DNA of 18,706 nucleotides from Clostridiales bacterium. GTDB taxonomy: Bacteria > Bacillota_A > Clostridia > Oscillospirales > Oscillospiraceae. Each line of letters starts with the position of its first letter. The stretch's first letter is position 1. The notes under the pieces are model-generated. The model was not told the DNA's origin. It made no database searches and was given only the letters and a program-made list of their open reading frames with translations. Where the stretch lies: positions 1-18,706 of the forward strand of contig JALFGI010000110.1 of NCBI GenBank assembly GCA_022777455.1, read 5' to 3'. The position numbers were made by a program, and so were the translations under genes. This document shows, in pieces, positions 2,482-18,128 of the stretch.

Positions 2482-3222
2482 TTATTGATCGTTTCTCTTT
2501 CCCCTCCAGCCCTGCAGGCAGAAGGGCAGTTCCATCCGGTTGGCCTCCAGCAGCGCCTTGTCGAAAAGGATTTCCTCCGCCGGGCCGTCGGCCACAATCC
2601 GCCCGTGGGACAGCAGGATCACCCGCTGGCAGGTATCCAGGATCATGTCCAGATCGTGGGAGGCGATGAGCTTGGTCTGAGGAAGCCAGCGGATGGTATT
2701 GATCACCGTACGGCGATTCACGGGGTCCAGGGCCGTAGAAGGCTCGTCCATGAGAATGGTCTCCGGCTCCATGGCAAGAATGGTGGCAATGGCGGCCATC
2801 CGTTTTTCGCCGCCGGAGATCTTGTGATTGTAGCGGTGCTTTAATTCCGAGAGTCCCAGGCGGTTCAGGACCTCATCCACCCGGTGCTCTGTCTCTTCCT
2901 TGCTCAGGCCGTAGTTCCGGGGGCCGAAGGTCATGTCCTCGTAGACCGTGGGCATAAACATCTGATTGTCCGAGTCCTGCAGCACAAAGCCGATTTTCTG
3001 CCGGATCGCCGGAAGGTTCTGCTGATTCAGAGGCAGGTTATCCACGATGATCTCTCCCTGCCCCCGGAGCAGACCCAGCAGCAGCTTCATCATGGTGGAT
3101 TTTCCCGCGCCGTTGGCGCCGATCAGGCCGACGTTTTCACCCCTTTGAATGGTGAAGTTCAAATGCTCCACCACAGGATGCTCCAGGTCATAGGAAAAGG
3201 ACACATTCCGAAATTCTATCAT
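2482..3222 (-). CDS. cbiO: CbiO, ECF-type cobalt/nickel importer ATPase
   Basis: A 246-residue ABC ATPase with all motifs: Walker A GANGAGKS (35-42), Q-loop VLQDSDNQMF (80-89), signature SGGEK (136-140), Walker B TILMDEP (155-161), D-loop ALD, and H-loop SHD (188-190). The 'QDSDNQMF' Q-loop is characteristic of the CbiO/EcfA group rather than of other importer ATPases. It would power uptake by binding the coupling helices of CbiQ, probably as a homodimer because only one ATPase is encoded. The start at 3222 is preceded by GAGGT, which overlaps the end of cbiQ; the gap is 7 nt. It is the third gene of the operon. Confidence 0.95.
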   Translation of the reverse strand: MIEFRNVSFSYDLEHPVVEHLNFTIQRGENVGLIGANGAGKSTMMKLLLGLLRGQGEIIVDNLPLNQQNLPAIRQKIGFVLQDSDNQMFMPTVYEDMTFGPRNYGLSKEETEHRVDEVLNRLGLSELKHRYNHKISGGEKRMAAIATILAMEPETILMDEPSTALDPVNRRTVINTIRWLPQTKLIASHDLDMILDTCQRVILLSHGRIVADGPAEEILFDKALLEANRMELPFCLQGWRGKRNDQ

Positions 3223-3229
3223 TTCACAT

Positions 3230-4033
3230 TTACCTCACAAACAGACTTCCCAGCAGGTTGGGAACATTGACCATTCTGGCAAAAAGGAACAAGCCCACGC
3301 AGGCAACCGTATACACCACGCCGGAGAAACGGCATTGAGGCACCTGGGCATAGTGGAACTCCCCCCGGAAGCCCCGCAGGCGCATACTGTCGTACAGCTC
3401 CTGGGCCCGGTCCATGCTCCGCAGCAGCAGCTGACCCAGGAAGGAACCCCAAGCGGAAATATGGATGCCCTTCTGCCCCGGTGCCCGGAGCTTGTAAGCC
3501 TCGGTCATGATTGAAACCTCCTCCAGCATGACACCGATGTAACGGTAGGTAAGCAGCAGCAGGGTCGTCAGGACGGAGGGCACATGGAGCTTTCGCAGGG
3601 CGGCGCACAGGGCATCGATGGGTGTGGTAGCGATGAGCAGGAAGGAGGCCATCAGGGAAAAGACACCCTTCAGCATCAGCGTCACCATGGACACCATACC
3701 GCCGGTGACGGTGAGATTTCCCAGCTTCATCCACGGTGTATGGTCCAGGAAGGGATTCACCAGGCCCACGGCACAGACCAGGGGCAGCACCACCCGCAGC
3801 TTATAAAAACAGGTTCGCACCGGAATCCCCGCCGCCTGGAACAGCAGAATCGGATACAGCACCATCACCACCAGCCCGGTGAAATCATATTTTGGAAACG
3901 ATACCACCGCGGCAATGTAGCAAACCGTCACCAGCAGCTTGCACAGCGGGTGCAGCCGGTGGGCAGGGGAATCCTCCGCCGCAAGGGCATCCATCTCCCG
4001 CAGCTCGCAGCGGGCCTGGGTCAATTTATCCAT
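3230..4033 (-). CDS. cbiQ: CbiQ, ECF transporter transmembrane (T) component
   Basis: A 267-residue membrane protein with several hydrophobic helices at about 33-70, 83-95, 111-137 and 152-170 plus one at the C-terminus. Two coupling motifs identify a T component: EAYKLRAPG (178-186) and DRAQELYDSMRLRGF (208-222), variants of the Ala-Arg-Gly helices that contact the ATPase. The start at 4033 was chosen because GAGGA precedes it and the N-terminus then matches the family; an in-frame ATG at 4114 would overlap cbiM and add a basic non-family stretch. A hairpin at 4059-4083 separates it from cbiM. Confidence 0.93.
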   Translation of the reverse strand: MDKLTQARCELREMDALAAEDSPAHRLHPLCKLLVTVCYIAAVVSFPKYDFTGLVVMVLYPILLFQAAGIPVRTCFYKLRVVLPLVCAVGLVNPFLDHTPWMKLGNLTVTGGMVSMVTLMLKGVFSLMASFLLIATTPIDALCAALRKLHVPSVLTTLLLLTYRYIGVMLEEVSIMTEAYKLRAPGQKGIHISAWGSFLGQLLLRSMDRAQELYDSMRLRGFRGEFHYAQVPQCRFSGVVYTVACVGLFLFARMVNVPNLLGSLFVR

Positions 4034-4058
4034 AGAAAATCCTCGTTTCAAAAGCAAT

Positions 4059-4083
4059 CGGAGGCACCGAACCGGCACCTCCG
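4059..4083 (-). promoter_or_regulatory. Intercistronic hairpin between cbiM and cbiQ
   Basis: The minus-strand RNA reads CGGAGGUGCCG-GUU-CGGUGCCUCCG, an 11-bp stem if two adjacent G-U pairs are allowed, with a 3-nt loop. On the DNA plus strand those two positions are mismatches, so the stem is best in the cbi transcript sense. It is followed by ATTGCTTTTG, a weak T-rich tract. It may partly terminate or protect the cbiM end of the mRNA. Confidence 0.6.
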
Positions 4084-4100
4084 ATAGTATACCATATCTG

Positions 4101-5168
4101 TTATGCTTTTGCATCCGCTTTTTTTCTGCGGAAGAAGCCGCCGCCCATGCAGATCAGCACAGCCACACCGGCCACAATGGCAGAGCCCAGCAGACCGGAA
4201 ACCGTGGTACCGGCAGCGCTGTCGCTGTTTGCAAAGGCATAGTCCGGCAGGAACGCGGTCTTTTCCTGGATGGAGCCCGCCACCTCAGCGGCGCCGCTGG
4301 ACACACCGTAGTCCTCCTCGTCCAGGCCCATATTCTCGCTGTAGCCGGCCTCCGCGTTGCCGAACATGGACCACTCCAGGCCATCGGGGTTGGAGCTTGC
4401 CACCAGGCTCAGACCGCCGCCGACAATGGCCACCACCACAGCCAGGATCATCACAGTGGTTTTCAGAGAGCACCGACTCTGAACAGCCGCATCACCGGTA
4501 TCCACGTCCATCAGCAGCTCGGGACGGGCTTCATAGACAAACACCAGCACAGCGGAGGTAATGAGGCCTTCGACCAGGCCAATGGCCAGATGGATGGGCT
4601 GCATGATGCCAACGAAAGCACCGAAGGGCAGCTCGGTGATGCCGGAAAGGGAGGTTTCCAGAACCACGGAGAGGGCGCCCAGCTGCAAGGTGATGACACA
4701 GCCCAGGACAGAAGCCAGAACAATTTTGGACCGGCCGGCGGCTTTCGCGCCCAGACCGCCAAACAGCTTGCTTCCCATGATTGGTCGCCATAACAAGTAG
4801 TACCCAACAAAGCACCCGTAAAACGCCATGTTCCAGCAGTTGGCGCCCAGCGCCAGCAATCCGCCGTCGGCAAAGAACAGGCACTGAATGGCCAAAATCA
4901 CCACCATGGACAAAAAGCCTGCCTGGGGTCCCAGCAGAGCGGACAGCATCATACCGCCGCACAGATGGCCGGAGGAACCGGTGCCGGGAATGGTATAGTT
5001 AATCATCTGGCCCGCGAAGACCAGAGCAGAGGCCACTGCCATGGTGGGCAGCTTTTCCAGGTTTTCATCTTTTTTCAGAGTCTTTACGGAAGCACCCACT
5101 GTCACCGCGGAGGCGGCATACATGGTCGCGGCAACAGCCGGGGCCAGCAACGCGTCTGCCATATGCAT
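4101..5168 (-). CDS. cbiM: CbiM-CbiN fusion, Co/Ni substrate-binding (S) component
   Basis: A 355-residue integral membrane protein. The N-terminus MHMADALLAP gives the strict Met1-His2 start that binds the metal in CbiM/NikM proteins, and GTGSSGHLCGG (62-72) supplies the conserved His68 region; GAFVGIMQPIHLAIGLVEG (183-201) is also typical. The C-terminal third is a separate module: a membrane helix (about 238-257), PDGLEW at 261-266, an acidic extracytoplasmic loop and a final helix (about 323-342) ending in RRKK. PDGLE is the hallmark of CbiN/NikN subunits, so CbiM and CbiN are fused and no separate cbiN is present. Co versus Ni cannot be decided from sequence. The start at 5168 has AGAGGTG upstream and is the first gene of the operon. 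Confidence 0.93.
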   Translation of the reverse strand: MHMADALLAPAVAATMYAASAVTVGASVKTLKKDENLEKLPTMAVASALVFAGQMINYTIPGTGSSGHLCGGMMLSALLGPQAGFLSMVVILAIQCLFFADGGLLALGANCWNMAFYGCFVGYYLLWRPIMGSKLFGGLGAKAAGRSKIVLASVLGCVITLQLGALSVVLETSLSGITELPFGAFVGIMQPIHLAIGLVEGLITSAVLVFVYEARPELLMDVDTGDAAVQSRCSLKTTVMILAVVVAIVGGGLSLVASSNPDGLEWSMFGNAEAGYSENMGLDEEDYGVSSGAAEVAGSIQEKTAFLPDYAFANSDSAAGTTVSGLLGSAIVAGVAVLICMGGGFFRRKKADAKA

Positions 5169-5612: not shown

Positions 5613-6068
5613 TCAATAATGCTCCTTGACTTCTACCAAGACCCCCAAGTCTTTGGCAGTGTCAAAATACTCATAGGCCTCGTAGCCCTTTTCCTGCTTA
5701 AAGATGGAAGCGTAACCGGCCTTGGCCATGATATCCTCATCCTTTTCCAGGGCACCGTCTGACAGCAGGCAGACAGAACAGACGGAAGTGCCATGCTCCT
5801 TCAGCCAGGCAGCCCAGGGATCATTGTCGCCCAAGGGCTGGATAATCTCAAACCAGAAATTGTCGCTGAAAACACTCTCCACCTTCATGGGTGTGTCGGT
5901 GATATCCTTGCCCAGATACCTGGTAAAGGGGGTGCGAACCATTTTGTGCTCGCCCTGCTCTGCGGGCGCTGTTCCGGTTCCCAGCAACGCTTTGTAGCCT
6001 GCCACGGTTTTTTCCAGATTATCGGTCACGATGATGACCTTTATGATTTTGGTAGACGAAAGAGCCAT
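5613..6068 (-). CDS. VOC superfamily protein, metal site degenerate
   Basis: A 151-residue protein with the two beta-alpha-beta-beta-beta modules of the vicinal oxygen chelate (glyoxalase/epimerase) fold. Alignment by eye with the second VOC protein of this operon (10847-11314) places its four ligand positions at Lys10, Glu74, Cys97/Ser98 and Glu146, where the paralogue has Gln12, Glu76, His99/His100 and Glu148. Two of the four usual ligands are thus missing. It may have lost metal catalysis or bind a sugar intermediate without metal. The ATG has GGAGG upstream. It is the last gene of the sugar operon, 24 nt after the SDR gene. Confidence 0.8.
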   Translation of the reverse strand: MALSSTKIIKVIIVTDNLEKTVAGYKALLGTGTAPAEQGEHKMVRTPFTRYLGKDITDTPMKVESVFSDNFWFEIIQPLGDNDPWAAWLKEHGTSVCSVCLLSDGALEKDEDIMAKAGYASIFKQEKGYEAYEYFDTAKDLGVLVEVKEHY

Positions 6069-6092
6069 TGAATTATCCTCCTTTTTTGTCCT

Positions 6093-6836
6093 TCAGCGAT
6101 TTGTAAAGCCGCCATCGGCGATGATTTCTGCGCCGGTTACATAAGATGATTGGTCAGAGGCCAGGAACAGGGCAATTGACGCAATCTCAGCAGGCTGACC
6201 GATATGCCCAATGGGAATTTGGGAAACCAGAGAATTGTAAACCGCCTGGTCTCCGTGAACAAACGCGGTGAATGCCTTGGTCTCCGTGGGCCCGGGGCTG
6301 ATGGCATTTGCCCGGATTCCCCGCTCTGCCAGCTCCCCGGTAAAAGAGCGGGCCATGGAGCGCACGGCGGCCTTGGCTGCATTGTATACAATCGCATTCT
6401 TGCCGCCCTGGAAACCGGCAATGGAGGAAATTAGAACGATTGAGGACTTACCGGACAGATAGGGAAGAACCTTCTGCACTGTAAAGAATGCGGAAAACAC
6501 ATTCAAGTTCATCGTCAAATTAAAAATGTCCGGGGTAATCTCCTCGATGGGATTCTGGGGACCATTGCCCACCACGGGCACAACCGCCTTCACCTTTCGG
6601 CCAGTTTTTGCGACAGCCTGTCCCAGGCGCTCCAGGTCTTCAATCTTGGTTGCATCCATGGCAACAAGTTCTACAACCTTGGGGTTATCCGCGTATACCT
6701 TCCGGGCGTTTTCCAGATTGTGCACACCCAGAATCACATCCGCACCCTCGGCTATAAACCGCTCCGCCACAGCACGGCCAATGCCATCACCCGCACCGGT
6801 AATGACACACAATTCATGATTCAGCAATTTTTCCAT
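6093..6836 (-). CDS. Short-chain dehydrogenase/reductase (SDR)
   Basis: A 247-residue classical SDR. It has the cofactor loop TGAGDGIG (13-20), Asn112 in LNVF, the catalytic Ser137/Ser138 in LISSIAG, Tyr151-x3-Lys155 in YNAAK, and PGPTET (181-186) closing the active site. The C-terminal SYVTGAEIIADGGF is standard. It should reversibly oxidise an alcohol with NAD(P); the usual NNAG motif is replaced by VVGNG (88-92). It lies 15 nt after a permease gene and upstream of a VOC gene, so it most likely acts on a sugar or polyol taken up by the adjacent transporter. The exact substrate is unknown. Confidence 0.9.
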   Translation of the reverse strand: MEKLLNHELCVITGAGDGIGRAVAERFIAEGADVILGVHNLENARKVYADNPKVVELVAMDATKIEDLERLGQAVAKTGRKVKAVVPVVGNGPQNPIEEITPDIFNLTMNLNVFSAFFTVQKVLPYLSGKSSIVLISSIAGFQGGKNAIVYNAAKAAVRSMARSFTGELAERGIRANAISPGPTETKAFTAFVHGDQAVYNSLVSQIPIGHIGQPAEIASIALFLASDQSSYVTGAEIIADGGFTNR

Positions 6837-6851
6837 ATCCGTTACCTCGAA

Positions 6852-7640
6852 TCATTTTAGCGCGCCGGCACTCATGCCCTGCTCAAAATTCTTCTGCATG
6901 AGCAGATATGCCGTAATTTCGGGAATCGCTGTCAGCACAGCGGCTGCCAGGATTTTGGTCTGGTCGTTTGTAAATTCGCCCTGGAAATACTGAGGCAGCA
7001 GCGTGACCACCTGCAGATTGGGACTCTGGAGGAACAGCAAGGGCAGCAGGTAAGCATTCCAGGCATTGATCAGCGTCAGCACGATGATTGCCGAGGCAAT
7101 GGGTTTGGTCAGAGGCAGGATGATGTGACAGAACACCTGCCAAATGCTGGCGCCGTCAATTCTCGCGGCTTCCATAAACTCATTGGGAATGCCGGCATCA
7201 AAGTTCCGGGTCAGCAGGATGGTGAAGGGAATCTGCAGGGCTGCACTGGGCAGGATCACCGCAAAGAAGGTGTTGAACATGTGCAGCTTCTGGAAGGTGA
7301 CAAAGAGCGGGGTCAGCAGAATCACCTCGGGCAGCGTCAGGGCAACCAGGATCAGCCAGAAATAGATCTCCTTGCCGCGGACATACAGCTTTGCAAAGCC
7401 GAAACCGGCGGTCATGCTGAAAAAGTAAACCAGCAGGATGACGCAGAAGGAAATGATGGCAGAGTTACGGAAATAGGTGGGCACCACGCCGGTGTCCCAA
7501 ACAGCCTTGTAGTTATACAGACCTCTGCCGCCTAGGGAGCCAAGAACCATCTGAACCAGAGGCAGAACGTAAGGGATTGTCATAATCAGAAGAATGACCT
7601 GAAGCAGAATCCTGTTTTTTCTGGTACGCACTTCAAACAT
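6852..7640 (-). CDS. CUT1 sugar ABC permease, MalG/LacG-type
   Basis: A 262-residue permease with about six membrane helices and the ATPase-docking EAA loop EAARIDGAS (157-165), continuing to ILPLTKP. Length, and its position as the second permease, match MalG/LacG/UgpE proteins of carbohydrate uptake transporter family 1. The start at 7640 has AAGGAGA upstream and lies only 5 nt after the partner permease gene, which suggests translational coupling. No ATPase gene is present in the operon; CUT1 systems of Firmicutes commonly use a shared MsmK-type ATPase encoded elsewhere. Confidence 0.93.
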   Translation of the reverse strand: MFEVRTRKNRILLQVILLIMTIPYVLPLVQMVLGSLGGRGLYNYKAVWDTGVVPTYFRNSAIISFCVILLVYFFSMTAGFGFAKLYVRGKEIYFWLILVALTLPEVILLTPLFVTFQKLHMFNTFFAVILPSAALQIPFTILLTRNFDAGIPNEFMEAARIDGASIWQVFCHIILPLTKPIASAIIVLTLINAWNAYLLPLLFLQSPNLQVVTLLPQYFQGEFTNDQTKILAAAVLTAIPEITAYLLMQKNFEQGMSAGALK

Positions 7641-7645
7641 ATCTC

Positions 7646-8521
7646 TCAGTCTCCTTTGTTGGCATAGTTCGTTGCCAGGGCTCCCACGATGGCCAGGACC
7701 AGAAGCGTGACGGATAGTGCCGCAGCGTAACCCAGATGGGATTGCCGGATGCCCTGCCGGTAGATGTAGGTTCCCAGGAATTCGGTGGCATGGTTGGGTC
7801 CTCCGGTGGTGATCAGATAAGGAATATCAAAGGTCTTAAGCGCGCCGATAATTCCCAGCATTGCCATGGAAACGGTAGTGCCCTTACAGTGGGGCAGGAC
7901 CATGGTGATCAGCGTACGGATATTGCCCGCGCCGTCAATACGGGCCGCTTCCAGAATCTGCTTGTCAATCTGGCTCATGGCCGCGTAATACAGAATAAAG
8001 CTCATACCGGTGAATTCCCAAATGGCCACCGCCATCAGGACATACAGGGCCGTGTCGGGATTGGCCAGCCAATTCACTTTGATGCCCAGGTGCAGTGTAT
8101 CGAATATGGACTGCAGCATGCCCTGAGGAGAGAACAGCAGGCGGAAAACAGGGGCCATGGTTGCAGGAGCCAGAATGGTCGGAATAAAGATGAGACATTT
8201 GTGCAGTGTAGGAAGCTTGACCTGGCTGTGGAGGATCGCAGCGAAGAGAAAGCCCAGAGAATTCTGCACCACAAAGGTGATAATGAAATAAACGACGGTA
8301 TTTTTGATGCAGATCCAGAATACCCGGTCCTTAAAGAGCTTTGTATAGTTCTTTAGTCCCACGCTTTTTCGAACCGGGTCCAGACCGTTCCAGTTCAGGG
8401 TAGACAGGTTGAAGGTGTAGAAAATGGAATAATAAATGATTACCAGCAGGAAAATAAACGCCGGGAGAATCCAAGGCAATCCATTTATTTTGGTGGAAGA
8501 GTGGTTCGTTTTCAATTTCAC
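7646..8521 (-). CDS. CUT1 sugar ABC permease, MalF/UgpA-type
   Basis: A 291-residue permease with six predicted membrane helices and the EAA loop EAARIDGAG (191-199). The N-terminal helix (about 16-38) is followed by an extracytoplasmic loop and the line GLKNYTKLF, usual in MalF/UgpA/LacF homologues. The start codon is GTG at 8521, with GAGGTGA about 6 nt upstream; no better ATG is near. It partners the MalG-type permease that follows, and lies 121 nt after the solute-binding-protein gene, from which it is separated by a hairpin. Confidence 0.92.
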   Translation of the reverse strand: MKLKTNHSSTKINGLPWILPAFIFLLVIIYYSIFYTFNLSTLNWNGLDPVRKSVGLKNYTKLFKDRVFWICIKNTVVYFIITFVVQNSLGFLFAAILHSQVKLPTLHKCLIFIPTILAPATMAPVFRLLFSPQGMLQSIFDTLHLGIKVNWLANPDTALYVLMAVAIWEFTGMSFILYYAAMSQIDKQILEAARIDGAGNIRTLITMVLPHCKGTTVSMAMLGIIGALKTFDIPYLITTGGPNHATEFLGTYIYRQGIRQSHLGYAAALSVTLLVLAIVGALATNYANKGD

Positions 8522-13679: not shown

Positions 13680-13849
13680 GGCAGCACCGCATAATGGAGC
13701 AAGGAGATTCGGCGGGATGCATGTTTGAGCCAGCTTCCCCATGAGGGAGGCGCGAGTTTTCTGCTCTCAACGGAGACAGACTGAAAAGATCTTATCCACC
13801 ACTTTCGGCAAGCAATCCCACATTTTCATGAAAAATCACCTGAACTCTA
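13680..13849. other. Gap between araC and the GTPase gene
   Basis: No gene or terminator is visible. It begins right after the araC stop with GGCAGCACCGCATAATGG, a phrase I associate loosely with ends of repeated intergenic elements in Clostridia; I cannot verify that here. Confidence 0.3.
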
Positions 13850-13905
13850 TCGACTATAGCCCCCTTCCATGATATAATACGGGAAATTATCCATGAAAGG
13901 GGGCT
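13850..13905 (+). promoter_or_regulatory. GTPase promoter embedded in an inverted repeat
   Basis: TCGACT (13850-13855), 17-nt spacer, TATAAT (13873-13878). The -10 is in the loop of an inverted repeat, AGCCCCCTTCCATG (13858-13871) / CATGAAAGGGGGCT (13892-13905), pairing at 13 of 14 positions. The right arm holds the Shine-Dalgarno AAAGGGGG of the gene at 13912. Transcription should start near 13885, after the left arm, giving a 27-nt leader. Confidence 0.75.
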
Positions 13906-13911
13906 GCCATC

Positions 13912-16443
13912 ATGCCAGAGCAGCCGAAAAAGACACCGTGTGGTATTGGTGTGTTAGCCCATGTGGATGCGGGAAAGACCACTCTTTCGGAAGCCCTTCT
14001 GTATTGCAGTGGGGAGCGGCGGACTCTGGGGCGGGTGGACCACGGAGACGCCTACCTGGACAGCCACAATCTGGAGCGGGAGCGGGGCATCACCATTTTC
14101 TCCAAGCAGGCCCGGCTGGAAACCGACCACCGGCAGATCATCCTGGTGGATACCCCGGGGCATGTGGATTTCTCGGCGGAGGCGGAGCGCACCATGCCGG
14201 TGCTGGACTGCGCCGTGCTGGTGATCAGCGGCACCGACGGGGTCCAGGCCCACACGGTGACCCTCTGGCGGCTGCTGGAACGCTACCAGGTGCCGGTATT
14301 CCTGTTTATCAACAAAATGGATCTGCCCGGGGCGGACCGGGAAAAGCTGCTGGCCCAATTGCAGCAGCAGCTGAGCCCCGGCTGTGTGGACTTCGGCATG
14401 GCCAAATCGGAAATCGCCGAGGCGGCGGCCATGTGCGACGAAGGTCTGCTGGAAAGCTACCTCGCCACCGGCGCCGTGACGGATGGAAATCTGCGGGGGC
14501 TGATCCAGGGCCGGAAGCTCTTCCCCTGCTGCTTTGGCGCGGCGCTGAAGCTCACGGGCGTGGAGCAGCTGCTGGCCCTGCTGGACACTTACGCCCCTCA
14601 AAAAGAATACGGAAGCTCCTTTGCCGCCCGGGTGTACAAAATCTCCCGGGATGCCGCTGGGACCCGGCTGACCTGGGTGAAGGTCACCGGCGGCAGTTTG
14701 AAGGTGCGCCAGAATCTGCGCTACACCAACCGGAAAGGGGATGCGTTGGAGGAGAAGCTGGTGCAGCTGCGGCTGTACTCCGGGGACAAATTCACCGCCC
14801 CGGAGGAAGTGAATGCCGGGCAGCTGGCGGCCATCACCGGCCTTTCCGCCACCTATGTGGGCCAGTCCCTGGGAGCGGAGCCGGAAGGACAGCCTCCCGT
14901 CCTGGAGCCGGTGATGACCTACCGGGTAAACCTGCCCAAGGGCTGCGACCCCGCCCAGGCCCTGCCCAAGCTGCGGCAGCTGGAGGAGGAAGGCCCCCAG
15001 CTCCACCTGCTGTGGGAAGACGGGCAGATCCATGTGCAGATCATGGGACGGGTGCAGCTGGAAATTTTCCGCAGTCTGGTGCAGCAGCGCTTTGGTCTGG
15101 AAATCACCCTGGACGACCGGCGGATTTTTTATAAGGAAACCATTCTGGACACGGTGGAGGGCGTGGGCCATTTCGAGCCCCTGCGCCACTACGCCGAATG
15201 CCACATTCTCCTGGAACCCCTGCCCCAGGGCTCCGGGCTGGTATTGGATACCGTCTGCCCCCTGGATGTGCTGGACGGGAACTACCAGAACCTGATTCTC
15301 ACCCACCTGGCGGAGAAAACCCACCGTGGTGTGCTCATCGGCGCCCCCATTACGGACATGAAGCTCACCCTGCTGGTGGGCAAGGCCCATCTGAAGCACA
15401 CCGAAGGCGGCGATTTCCGCCAGGCCACCTACCGGGCGGTGCGCCAGGGACTGATGCAGGCCAAAAGCCAGCTGCTGGAGCCCTGGTACGATTTCGCGGT
15501 GACCGCCCCCACGGAGCTCATCGGCCGGGCCATCACCGACATCCGGTCCATGGGTGGAGAATTTGAGGCCCCGGAGAGCCAGGGGGCCGTTTCCACCCTG
15601 AAGGGCATGGTCCCCGCTTCGGAGGTCCGGGACTATGCCGACCAGCTGGCGGCCTACACCCAGGGGCGGGGACGGCTGCAGCTGTCCCTCCACGGCTATG
15701 CCCCCTGCCACAACACCCAGGCGGTGGTGGAGGCGGCGGGCTACGACCCGGAGGCCGACCTGGACAACACCCCGGATTCCGTGTTCTGCGCCCACGGAGC
15801 GGGCTTCAACGTGAAATGGAACCAGGTGAAGGATTACATGCACCTGGAAAGCGGCCTGAAGGAAGAAAAGCCGCCCCAGATCATTCCCCGGGCCAGCATC
15901 GACGACAAGGAACTGGAACGGATCATGGAGCGGGAATTCGGCCCCATCAGCCGCCGGCAGTACGCCGCCCCCGCCTCCCGCCCCGCCACGGAGGAGGTCA
16001 CCATCCGCCAACCCAAGCAGCGCTGCATCATCGTAGACGGCTACAACATCATCTTCGCCTGGGAGTCCCTGGCAAACCAGGCCAAATCCGACCTGGACGC
16101 CGCCCGGCGGCAGCTGTGCGACGCGCTTTCCAGCTACGCCGGCTTCACCAAGCACCGGCTGGTAGTGGTGTTTGACGGCTACAAGCAGAAGGGCAGCACC
16201 GGAGAAAAAAGCCAGTTCCACAACATCCAGGTGGTGTTCACCCGGGAGGGTCAGACTGCCGACCGCTACATCGAAGAGCTGGCGGCGGAAATCGGAAACA
16301 ACTATGCCGTAAGGGTAGCTTCCTCCGACGGCCTGGTGCAGCTGAGCTCCTTCCGCAGCGGCGTGCTGCGGATGTCCGCCCGGGAGCTCCAGGACGAGGT
16401 AGAAAACGCCCACCGGGAAATGGGGAAATATTTCCGCTGTTAG
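13912..16443 (+). CDS. TetM/EF-G-like ribosomal GTPase fused to Rae1/YacP NYN ribonuclease domain
   Basis: An 843-residue fusion. Residues 1-690 are a translational GTPase of the ribosomal-protection (TetM/TetO) type: G1 AHVDAGKT (16-23), G2 Thr61 in RGIT, G3 DTPGH (80-84) with catalytic His84, and G4 NKMD (134-137). EF-G-like domains II-V follow, including LLEPWYDFAVTAP and a domain V with TQGRGRLQLSLHGY. The domain IV loop is HLKHTEGGDFR (493-503), not the YSPVSTPADFR of TetM/TetO. After a linker, residues 704-843 form a NYN/YacP domain: IIVDGYNII (Asp709), VVFDGYK (Asp755), TADRYIEEL (Asp784) and ASSDGLVQ (Asp806), so the acidic nuclease residues are kept. YacP/Rae1 is an A-site mRNA endonuclease in Bacillus. 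The ATG has AAAGGGGG 7 nt upstream. A role in ribosome rescue or mRNA cleavage is inference. Confidence 0.9.
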   Translation: MPEQPKKTPCGIGVLAHVDAGKTTLSEALLYCSGERRTLGRVDHGDAYLDSHNLERERGITIFSKQARLETDHRQIILVDTPGHVDFSAEAERTMPVLDCAVLVISGTDGVQAHTVTLWRLLERYQVPVFLFINKMDLPGADREKLLAQLQQQLSPGCVDFGMAKSEIAEAAAMCDEGLLESYLATGAVTDGNLRGLIQGRKLFPCCFGAALKLTGVEQLLALLDTYAPQKEYGSSFAARVYKISRDAAGTRLTWVKVTGGSLKVRQNLRYTNRKGDALEEKLVQLRLYSGDKFTAPEEVNAGQLAAITGLSATYVGQSLGAEPEGQPPVLEPVMTYRVNLPKGCDPAQALPKLRQLEEEGPQLHLLWEDGQIHVQIMGRVQLEIFRSLVQQRFGLEITLDDRRIFYKETILDTVEGVGHFEPLRHYAECHILLEPLPQGSGLVLDTVCPLDVLDGNYQNLILTHLAEKTHRGVLIGAPITDMKLTLLVGKAHLKHTEGGDFRQATYRAVRQGLMQAKSQLLEPWYDFAVTAPTELIGRAITDIRSMGGEFEAPESQGAVSTLKGMVPASEVRDYADQLAAYTQGRGRLQLSLHGYAPCHNTQAVVEAAGYDPEADLDNTPDSVFCAHGAGFNVKWNQVKDYMHLESGLKEEKPPQIIPRASIDDKELERIMEREFGPISRRQYAAPASRPATEEVTIRQPKQRCIIVDGYNIIFAWESLANQAKSDLDAARRQLCDALSSYAGFTKHRLVVVFDGYKQKGSTGEKSQFHNIQVVFTREGQTADRYIEELAAEIGNNYAVRVASSDGLVQLSSFRSGVLRMSARELQDEVENAHREMGKYFRC

Positions 16444-16656: not shown

Positions 16657-17139
16657 GTGGAGGACGCTTCTTTTATGGAACAAGCCCTGGCTCTGGCCAG
16701 GGAGGCCGCCCGGGAAGGGGAAGTGCCCGTGGGCTGCGTCATCGTCCGGAAGGGCGAGATCGTAGGCCGGGGCCGCAACCGCAGGGAGAAGGACAAGTCC
16801 GCCCTGGCCCACGCGGAGGTGGAGGCCATCGCCCAGGCCAACCGCACTTTGGGTGGTTGGCGGCTGTGGGAGTGCACCCTGTACGTCACCCTGGAGCCCT
16901 GCCCCATGTGCGCCGGGGCCATCCTCAACGCCCGGATTCCCCGGGTGGTTTATGGGGCCAGGGACGAAAAGTACGGTGCCTGCCGCAGCGTGTGCAGCCT
17001 GTTTGACATGAATTTCAACCACCATCCGGTGGTGGAGGGCGGGGTGCTGGAACAGGCGTGCGCCGAATTGATGCAGGAATTCTTCCGGGAACTTCGCGTC
17101 CAGCTGAGAAGCAGACCAAAGTGGAGGCAGCCGGAATAA
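16657..17139 (+). CDS. tadA: TadA, tRNA-specific adenosine deaminase
   Basis: A 160-residue zinc deaminase that makes inosine at the wobble position of tRNA-Arg(ACG). The catalytic set is complete: His52-Ala-Glu54 in LAHAEVEAI and the two zinc cysteines in PCPMC (81-85). VPVGCVIV, LYVTLEPC and VVYGARDEKYGA are all usual for TadA. The start is GTG at 16657, with AGGAGG 6 nt upstream; the resulting MEDASFMEQAL matches the family N-terminus better than the upstream in-frame ATG at 16633, which lies before the ribosome binding site. It is followed 17 nt later by spoIIP, probably on the same transcript. A possible -10 (TATGAT, 16632-16637) would give a very short leader. Confidence 0.95.
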   Translation: MEDASFMEQALALAREAAREGEVPVGCVIVRKGEIVGRGRNRREKDKSALAHAEVEAIAQANRTLGGWRLWECTLYVTLEPCPMCAGAILNARIPRVVYGARDEKYGACRSVCSLFDMNFNHHPVVEGGVLEQACAELMQEFFRELRVQLRSRPKWRQPE

Positions 17140-17156
17140 CCGCAGGAGGGATTGGA

Positions 17157-18128
17157 TTGGACCAGGTGCGCAGTGCCCGAAAATTCGGAATATCCGTGAT
17201 TTTGCTGACCATGCTTTTCCGCGTGTTTGAGCTGGGGCTGCCCCAAAAAGCGCTCCGCTCCGTCAACTGGCCCTCCGCCAGGCAAATAGAGAAAGAGACC
17301 GAACGGGCAGTTCGGTCCTTTTCTTTTCCCTTCCCCTTTGAGTCCTCCCCACCCACGGACTATACCCCGGAGCCGGTGCGCCCGGTGTTCACCGCCGGGG
17401 ATATTCAGGCGGTGGAGGTGGTGTCTGCCTCCCGGGAGGAAGCGGACTGCGAAGCGCTGATGGAAAGCCCTCTGACCTGGAACCTGGTCGGAAGCGGGCC
17501 GACGGTGCTCATCGTCCACACCCACACCTCCGAAAGCTACGAGAAAAACGGGGCGGACTATCAGGAAACCGCCGCCTACCGCACCCTGGACGAAAACTAC
17601 AATATGCTCTCCATCGGTGACCGGGTAGCGGAGCTTTTGGAAGCGGAGGGCATCCGGGTGATCCACGACCGGGAATTCCACGACTATCCCGACTACAATA
17701 CCGCCTATACCCACGCCCGAAAAGGGGTGCAGAGCCTTTTAAAGCAGAATCCCGGCATCCAGCTGGTGCTGGACCTGCACCGGGATGCCTCAGAGAGCAG
17801 CGGAAGTCAGCTGCGCACCCACGCCCTGGTGAATGGGGCGGACAGCTCCCAGCTGATGATCGTGCTGGGCACCGGCAATTCCGGACTGCCCAACGAAGGA
17901 TGGGAAGATAACCTCTCCCTGGCCCTGAAGCTCCAGGCCACCCTGGAGGGGCAAGCCCCCGGCATCTGCCGCCCCATCTCCCTGCGCAGCCAGCGGTTCA
18001 ACCAGGATCTGGCCCCCCACGCCCTGCTGGTGGAGGTAGGCGCCGCCGGGGACAGCCATGAAGAAGCCCTGGTTGCCGCCGAGCAGCTGGCAAAGGCATT
18101 GGCCGTGCTGAAATACGGGACGGAATAA
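17157..18128 (+). CDS. spoIIP: SpoIIP, stage II sporulation amidase
   Basis: A 323-residue membrane-anchored peptidoglycan hydrolase of the forespore engulfment machinery, which with SpoIID and SpoIIM degrades septal wall. One N-terminal membrane helix (about 9-26) is followed by a Pro-rich region and the catalytic domain. Conserved lines are VLIVHTHTSESY (117-128), LDLHRDA (205-211) and FNQDL with ALLVEVGAAGD (289-299), which give the His/Glu metal residues, with Glu293 in LLVEVG. The start is TTG at 17157 with AGGAGG 7 nt upstream; the alternative ATG at 17058 lies inside tadA. It shows that the organism belongs to a spore-forming lineage. Confidence 0.93.
   Translation: MDQVRSARKFGISVILLTMLFRVFELGLPQKALRSVNWPSARQIEKETERAVRSFSFPFPFESSPPTDYTPEPVRPVFTAGDIQAVEVVSASREEADCEALMESPLTWNLVGSGPTVLIVHTHTSESYEKNGADYQETAAYRTLDENYNMLSIGDRVAELLEAEGIRVIHDREFHDYPDYNTAYTHARKGVQSLLKQNPGIQLVLDLHRDASESSGSQLRTHALVNGADSSQLMIVLGTGNSGLPNEGWEDNLSLALKLQATLEGQAPGICRPISLRSQRFNQDLAPHALLVEVGAAGDSHEEALVAAEQLAKALAVLKYGTE

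Follow-up and report, generated by a model that had tools for sequence, protein, structure and literature searches.

The protein studied here is encoded in a stretch of 18,706 nt from a Clostridiales bacterium (contig JALFGI010000110.1), which we analyzed as a whole and refer to as the window. Its open reading frame at positions 13912–16443 is confirmed to be intact and to encode a GTPase of the EF-G/Tet type, followed at the C-terminus by an NYN_YacP domain, the nuclease domain known from Bacillus subtilis Rae1 (YacP). Among the clostridial genomes that we classified, stand-alone YacP is almost never found together with this fusion. We lean, narrowly, towards reading the protein as a ribosome-directed endoribonuclease, in which the Rae1 nuclease has been absorbed into a Tet/EF-G-like GTPase as one of its domains, taking the place of free Rae1 in a large group of gut Clostridia. 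As the fusion nearly always stands in for the separate nuclease in the genomes checked, this suggests mRNA cutting on ribosomes rather than tetracycline resistance. The architecture has been known since 2015, when it was reported from ten Clostridiales species together with the suggestion of a resistance role involving RNase activity (Atkinson 2015, PMC4342817), the introduction of that paper also mentioning rRNA RNase ability. Its available text yielded no analysis of stand-alone Rae1, its replacement, the identity of the GTPase, the extension or the promoter, and beside this paper we found no description of the fusion among the papers examined from the open-licence literature.

A translational GTPase joined to a Rae1-like nuclease

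The gene and the parts of its product are arranged as follows.

13912–16443, + strand: fusion gene (843 residues), encoding a Tet-like translational GTPase, a C-terminal extension, a linker and an NYN_YacP (Rae1-like) nuclease
13945–14598, + strand: G domain, residues 12–229, with G1 (AHVDAGKT), G3 (DTPGH) and G4 (NKMD)
15124–15465, + strand: EF-G domain IV, residues 405–518
15379–15423, + strand: domain IV loop, residues 490–504 (GKAHLKHTEGGDFRQ), at the position of Tet(M) loop III (YYSPVSTPADFR), from the alignment and its invariant columns
15469–15717, + strand: EF-G C-terminal domain, residues 520–602
15667–15861, + strand: subfamily-specific C-terminal extension, residues 586–650 (GYxPCHN...SVFCAHGAGF...MH), also found in nuclease-less homologs
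15862–16026, + strand: linker, residues 651–705, of low model confidence, from the alignment and the predicted structure
16027–16425, + strand: NYN_YacP / Rae1-like PIN-fold nuclease domain, residues 706–838
16036–16038, + strand: codon of Asp709, aligned with Rae1 D7
16174–16176, + strand: codon of Asp755, aligned with Rae1 D53
16261–16263, + strand: codon of Asp784, aligned with Rae1 D81
16327–16329, + strand: codon of Asp806, aligned with Rae1 D104

A first-pass annotation, made from the sequence alone, had described an EF-G-like GTPase with a C-terminal NYN/YacP domain keeping four aspartates, and both points are borne out: the NYN_YacP domain scores 148.4 bits (curated cut-off 24.6), and Asp709, Asp755, Asp784 and Asp806, which we take to be the catalytic set, align with D7, D53, D81 and D104 of Rae1. 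This alignment also took in 11 of 22 stand-alone yacP loci (one strand only), two of which start late and lack D7. The modelled NYN domain adopts the Rae1 fold, with 38–39% identity in structural alignments to B. subtilis Rae1 (PDB 5mq8, 5mq9). Compared with seven near relatives, both parts of the protein appear to be under constraint, since nonsynonymous divergence (dN) stays well below synonymous divergence (dS) in the NYN part (dN 0.15–0.25, dS 0.7–1.1) as well as in the GTPase part (dN 0.14–0.19, dS 0.6–1.1). The linker is poorly ordered in the predicted structure, with predicted local distance difference test (pLDDT) values below 50 at residues 652–664 and 680–700. Between these lies a stretch that is conserved among the fusions (DKELxxIfERtyG, residues ~665–677, positions 15904–15942), modelled as a helix at low confidence (pLDDT 51–57). 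Its conservation was read from a 78-row fusion alignment, which omits three open-ended fusion rows (L031, L035 and L072).

The fusion is widespread. The last 244 residues match 7146 proteins at E ≤ 0.001 (7996 candidates scored), and among the 120 matches listed, one of which is the window's own protein, PF05991 is present in all and the EF-Tu GTP-binding domain in all but three. One relative, titled Faecousia, shares 91% identity over these 244 residues. At least 597 stretches of species-level genomes fit the pattern, and 558 of them encode proteins related to the query, which need not all be fusions. The best 80 of these 558 all contain frames of 829–929 residues that cover the NYN part, extending the same architecture across Clostridia, as the first-pass annotation had proposed to check. 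Since these loci come from other assemblies, an assembly join of two adjacent genes is ruled out. The groups named in the titles are all Clostridia or Bacillota, such as Ruminococcus, Flavonifractor, Oscillibacter, Blautia and Agathobaculum. One genome (G158) carries two fusion genes with frames of 894 and 890 residues. Nearly full-length fusion genes are also present in 2 of 116 matching phage records (MT835563.1 and MT835514.1, both unannotated faecal 'Bacteriophage sp.' entries), which may be host DNA rather than phage.

The first-pass annotation had called the GTPase part a TetM-type factor. The EF-G/Tet-type assignment stood, with the domain order I–V of tetracycline ribosomal protection proteins, and the identification with TetM itself did not: by its sequence, the GTPase forms a subfamily of its own, with its own domain IV tip and a 65-residue C-terminal extension, and is not a Tet(M)-type resistance protein. 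It is 28.6–30.3% identical to listed phage-borne copies of Tet(W), Tet(M) and Tet(O) over residues 11–598. The NCBIfam model for tetracycline ribosomal protection is its best NCBIfam match, yet the score of 392 bits lies below the equivalog threshold of 775. In the alignment, the Tet-type loop III is absent from domain IV, its place being occupied by a different loop in which G490, H493, K495–D501 and R503 are invariant across the 78 rows. In the available part of one study, loop III at the tip of domain IV is rated functionally most important for Tet(M) and is considered the element that drives tetracycline out of its binding site on the 30S subunit (PMC4750697). Following domain V, the Tet C-terminal end is replaced by the extension of ~65 residues, for which structure searches with the model returned no fold, the matches being taken up by the EF-G or NYN part.

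A nuclease-less GTPase with the same extension occurs in Lactobacillaceae and in some genomes of our Clostridia samples, and PF05991 is present in none of the 120 listed rows of the GTPase-only search. The protein of L. salivarius UCC118 is 47.7% identical over residues 13–646, and its gene (L101, positions 5968–7902, plasmid pMP118) adjoins an rpsN (S14) gene. The lactobacillar GTPase-only proteins are partly annotated as TetM/TetW/TetO/TetS tetracycline resistance, a label that is probably over-called for L. salivarius and similar proteins. In a quick 72-row tree, the family splits from three Tet proteins at full support, and 25 GTPase-only proteins of the Clostridia samples form one group with a support of 100. 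The 35 fused proteins need two changes on this tree, of which well-supported branches force one. The tree includes 27 rows of odd composition and five partial GTPase-only rows, and was built without EF-G, so that closeness to Tet or to EF-G is not decided by it.

The fusion and stand-alone YacP

The relation between the fusion and free YacP was followed in 391 genomes of the class to which G013, the genome of a Caproicibacter locus (L052), belongs. NYN_YacP matches are present in 249 of these genomes, 248 of them above the cut-off. Frame lengths were listed for 148 of the 249 positive genomes, counting frames of up to 220 residues as stand-alone and those of 700 residues or more as fusions: 77 genomes have only the fusion, 62 only a stand-alone form, one has both, and eight have frames of intermediate length. 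One of the 62 (G249) probably represents a fusion cut by a contig end. Second NYN matches in three genomes (G161, G226 and G267) fall below the family cut-off and were not counted as YacP. The fusion frame holds the only NYN_YacP domain in all 25 genomes picked for the fusion, and likewise in all 15 genomes picked through the extension, out of 23 fusion genomes of a second, phylum-wide sample. The absence of stand-alone yacP alongside the fusion, another check raised by the first-pass annotation, thus holds for nearly all classified fusion genomes.

The genomic position of free yacP points in the same direction. At 22 stand-alone loci (19 taken from among the best matches of the 391-genome sample and three from the phylum sample), a sigH-like gene adjoins yacP in all 22 and rlmB in 19. 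In 8 of 20 chosen fusion genomes, rlmB and the sigH-like gene are adjacent with no NYN domain found between them, the gap measuring 19 to 583 bases in the seven of these that were fetched again. In a quick tree of the NYN domains, the fused ones make up one side of a single branch (35 versus 12; Shimodaira–Hasegawa-like approximate likelihood ratio test, SH-aLRT, 99), with B. subtilis Rae1 on a long branch. The fusion genomes are therefore not independent events.

The nuclease domain of the window protein lacks the C-terminal tail of Rae1 that contains W164 and R166, as the structural match stops at Rae1 residue 141. Its chain ends 14 residues past the position matching Rae1 E127, and among the window and its 20 nearest rows this distance is 12–15 residues (22 in one). 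W164, which lies in the tail with R166, is the residue altered in 5mq9. In the part of the study available, one of the rae1 suppressor alleles interpreted as losing function replaces R166 with Pro (PMC6613710). We infer that tail loss in the window's clade reflects the release of Rae1's putative ribosome-contact tail after the GTPase took over targeting.

The GTPase-only form is found in 14 of the 62 genomes with only stand-alone YacP and in 8 of the 142 genomes with no YacP (Fisher odds ratio 4.9, p 0.0009), a comparison that ignores kinship and genome size and includes one truncated frame among the eight. In the phylum sample, the extension is present in 29 of 398 genomes, as 23 fusion frames and six GTPase-only forms, and four of these six genomes encode stand-alone YacP. 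This co-occurrence fits a working link between the two parts.

Promoter and neighborhood

Upstream of the fusion gene, two features were mapped.

13850–13878, + strand: predicted promoter TCGACT-17-TATAAT with the TG of an extended −10 (TATCGAC...TGATATAAT), from a consensus match
13858–13905, no strand assigned: inverted repeat with arms at 13858–13871 and 13892–13905, in which the promoter spacer (CCCCCTT) pairs with the Shine–Dalgarno region (AAAGGGGG)

The predicted promoter ends 33 bases upstream of the start codon, giving a predicted leader of ~30 bases, and a search of the + strand from position 13680 to the start codon gave no terminator-like site. With such a short leader and no such site, the region showed nothing like a long tet-type leader. 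The pattern TCGAC-N14-18-TGNTANNNT is present in 27 of 79 upstream regions (contig titles Oscillospiraceae and Lachnospiraceae), versus 1 of 79 for TTGAC. Across whole genomes, TATCGAC-N14-17-TGNTATAAT occurs once each in six of nine, five of the six sites lying at the fusion gene by their coordinates, while a reversed control gave none; most of the nine were picked because their fusion gene shows the motif, and the point is the lack of other sites. The stem of the inverted repeat has a mean score of 8.05 over 20 loci, a set dominated by near relatives; when arms are exchanged between loci, the mean falls to 5.63, and the highest value across 200 swaps is 6.72. Of the 20 loci, 11 have a strong stem (score of at least 8) and nine a weak one. 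A gene-specific regulator could possibly act at the predicted TATCGAC-type promoter.

The wider surroundings are not shared. In a clustering of the flanking genes of 81 loci (families unannotated), even the most frequent family is present in at most 9 loci, and six families occur in 6–9. Within the window, a SpoIIP sporulation gene lies downstream on the same strand (17058–18128), and cobalt-type transporter genes (CbiM with PDGLE, CbiQ and an ATP-binding cassette ATPase) occupy 2482–5168 on the − strand.

Proposed action and known systems

A ribosome-directed nuclease could operate as follows. In its GTP-bound state, the GTPase would enter the factor site of a ribosome whose A site is empty or poorly filled, and domain IV, with its tip unlike that of Tet(M), would read or clear the A site. 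Upon GTP hydrolysis, domain IV would withdraw, and the NYN domain, on its 55-residue linker, would then gain access to the exposed mRNA and cleave it, thereby marking the message for decay and leaving the ribosome for rescue. The conserved linker stretch may serve to dock the NYN domain. As domain IV and the nuclease are unlikely to fit into the A site together, any mechanism has to proceed in sequence or target another place on the mRNA. We also entertain, with more doubt, a fuller scheme in which a GTP-gated endonuclease, standing in for free Rae1 across a large group of gut Clostridia, is swung onto the A-site codon of drug-bound, starved or stalled ribosomes; the GTPase-only proteins of lactobacilli and other Clostridia would be the original partner or guide of free Rae1, and the near-unique promoter would tune the dose. 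The interpretation offered in the first-pass annotation, of one polypeptide bringing a nuclease to stalled or drug-bound ribosomes, is partly supported overall.

Several observations weigh against a ribosome-directed nuclease that took the place of Rae1. Ribosome binding, GTP gating, mRNA as the substrate and the order of the steps are all things we infer, and the structure model (predicted template modelling score, pTM, 0.63) does not fix the orientation of the domains. A single gain with few losses, instead of many replacements, may yield the same exclusion counts. For 12 of the 20 chosen fusion genomes, the rlmB stretch yielded no sigH-like gene, making the slot uninformative there, and one genome (G355) has the fusion plus an intact rlmB-yacP-sigH order, which looks like an intermediate state. 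Because 142 of the 391 genomes, whose completeness is not given, have no NYN_YacP match, cells may be able to do without the activity. Domain IV would sit in the very A site that has been proposed for Rae1. The tail is not lost throughout the fusions: 57 farther rows hold 14–55 residues, many of them 30–55, after the position of Rae1 E127, 7 of 78 rows fit a loose tail pattern with at least two more (L056 and L068) alike by eye, and many fusions match the NYN_YacP profile to position 163–165 of 166. Finally, since GTPase-only forms occur in genomes with no YacP (8 of 142, and two of six in the phylum sample), the GTPase can clearly exist apart from the nuclease and has a role of its own.

An alternative is that two separate activities share one chain for co-expression only, the nuclease acting as free Rae1 does and the GTPase serving unrelated translocation or stall relief. 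The long, poorly ordered linker and the YacP-less GTPase-only relatives agree with this arrangement, which we consider rather improbable given the conserved stretch inside the linker and the missing Rae1 tail of the window's clade. To a role in ribosome assembly or RNA maturation, where the GTPase would bind ribosomes or one of their subunits to let the NYN domain trim rRNA or tRNA, we give similarly little credence. Stand-alone yacP adjoins rlmB and, in part of the loci, mrnC, which has a role in 23S rRNA. RlmB acts in 23S rRNA methylation (PMC6613710, available part), and the NYN domain was earlier proposed to act in rRNA and tRNA maturation (PMC4342817, likewise). Against this, the closest solved relative, B. 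subtilis Rae1, is described in the accessible portions of two reports as a ribosomal A-site mRNA endonuclease (PMC6613710, PMC12320835).

A resistance role for the fusion, as proposed in Atkinson 2015 (PMC4342817, as far as its available text goes), would have the GTPase part dislodge tetracycline or some other drug bound at the A site, with the RNase part supplying a further mechanism, for instance rRNA cutting. Such a role appears quite unlikely. The best-matching NCBIfam model, the Tet-family names of some relatives and the two phage records, which make mobility possible, all speak for it. The 392-bit score, however, is far under the cut-off, the loop III residues of Tet(M/O/W), the functionally most important ones in Tet(M) (PMC4750697, available part), are replaced by a different and largely invariant motif, and another extension stands in place of the Tet C-terminal end. 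The short predicted leader and lack of a terminator-like site also argue against resistance, as does the single NYN_YacP copy in the 25 and 15 fusion genomes described above, though G158 has two fusion genes. Among 1322 plasmid records with a match, 80% coverage of the gene is reached in only two; both are typed non-mobilizable, with secA near one copy and a methionyl aminopeptidase gene near the other. The score, the missing loop and these plasmid records support the first-pass view, in that this does not look like an ordinary tetracycline-resistance gene. On the same grounds, a recent mobile resistance gene was judged unlikely, shared mobile neighbors still being possible among the unannotated flanking families.

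A natural fusion of Rae1 to a Tet/EF-G-type GTPase, seemingly displacing free Rae1, provides a direct hypothesis for how Rae1 selects and enters ribosomes, as well as a ready test construct. Some public TetM/TetW/TetO/TetS-family names are suggested to cover another subfamily, which should not be counted as resistance without a test. New here are the distinct GTPase subfamily, the near-exclusion with free YacP, the yacP-less rlmB-sigH slot, the clade-limited tail loss and the conserved promoter.

Among known systems, B. subtilis Rae1/YacP (5mq8, 5mq9) shares the PIN/NYN fold and the four aspartates with the fusion. It is a free protein (a PDB chain of 181 residues) with a C-terminal tail, whereas the window protein is fused and tailless; in the Clostridia examined, free YacP is encoded beside rlmB and sigH. 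Tet(M), Tet(O) and Tet(W) share the EF-G-like GTPase and differ in their domain IV tip and C-terminal end, confer resistance and carry no nuclease. The GTPase-only relatives of Lactobacillaceae and Clostridia, whose records bear names such as 'translation factor GTPase family protein', elongation factor G or TetM family, belong to the same subfamily and have the extension without the NYN domain. The clostridial Tet-NYN proteins of Atkinson 2015, likewise from Clostridiales, have the same architecture, pairing a GTPase of the Tet family with an NYN RNase domain akin to YacP; the available text of that study (PMC4342817) offers ten species and a resistance proposal, whereas the present analysis adds the likely replacement of Rae1, a distinct subfamily, the extension and a predicted promoter.

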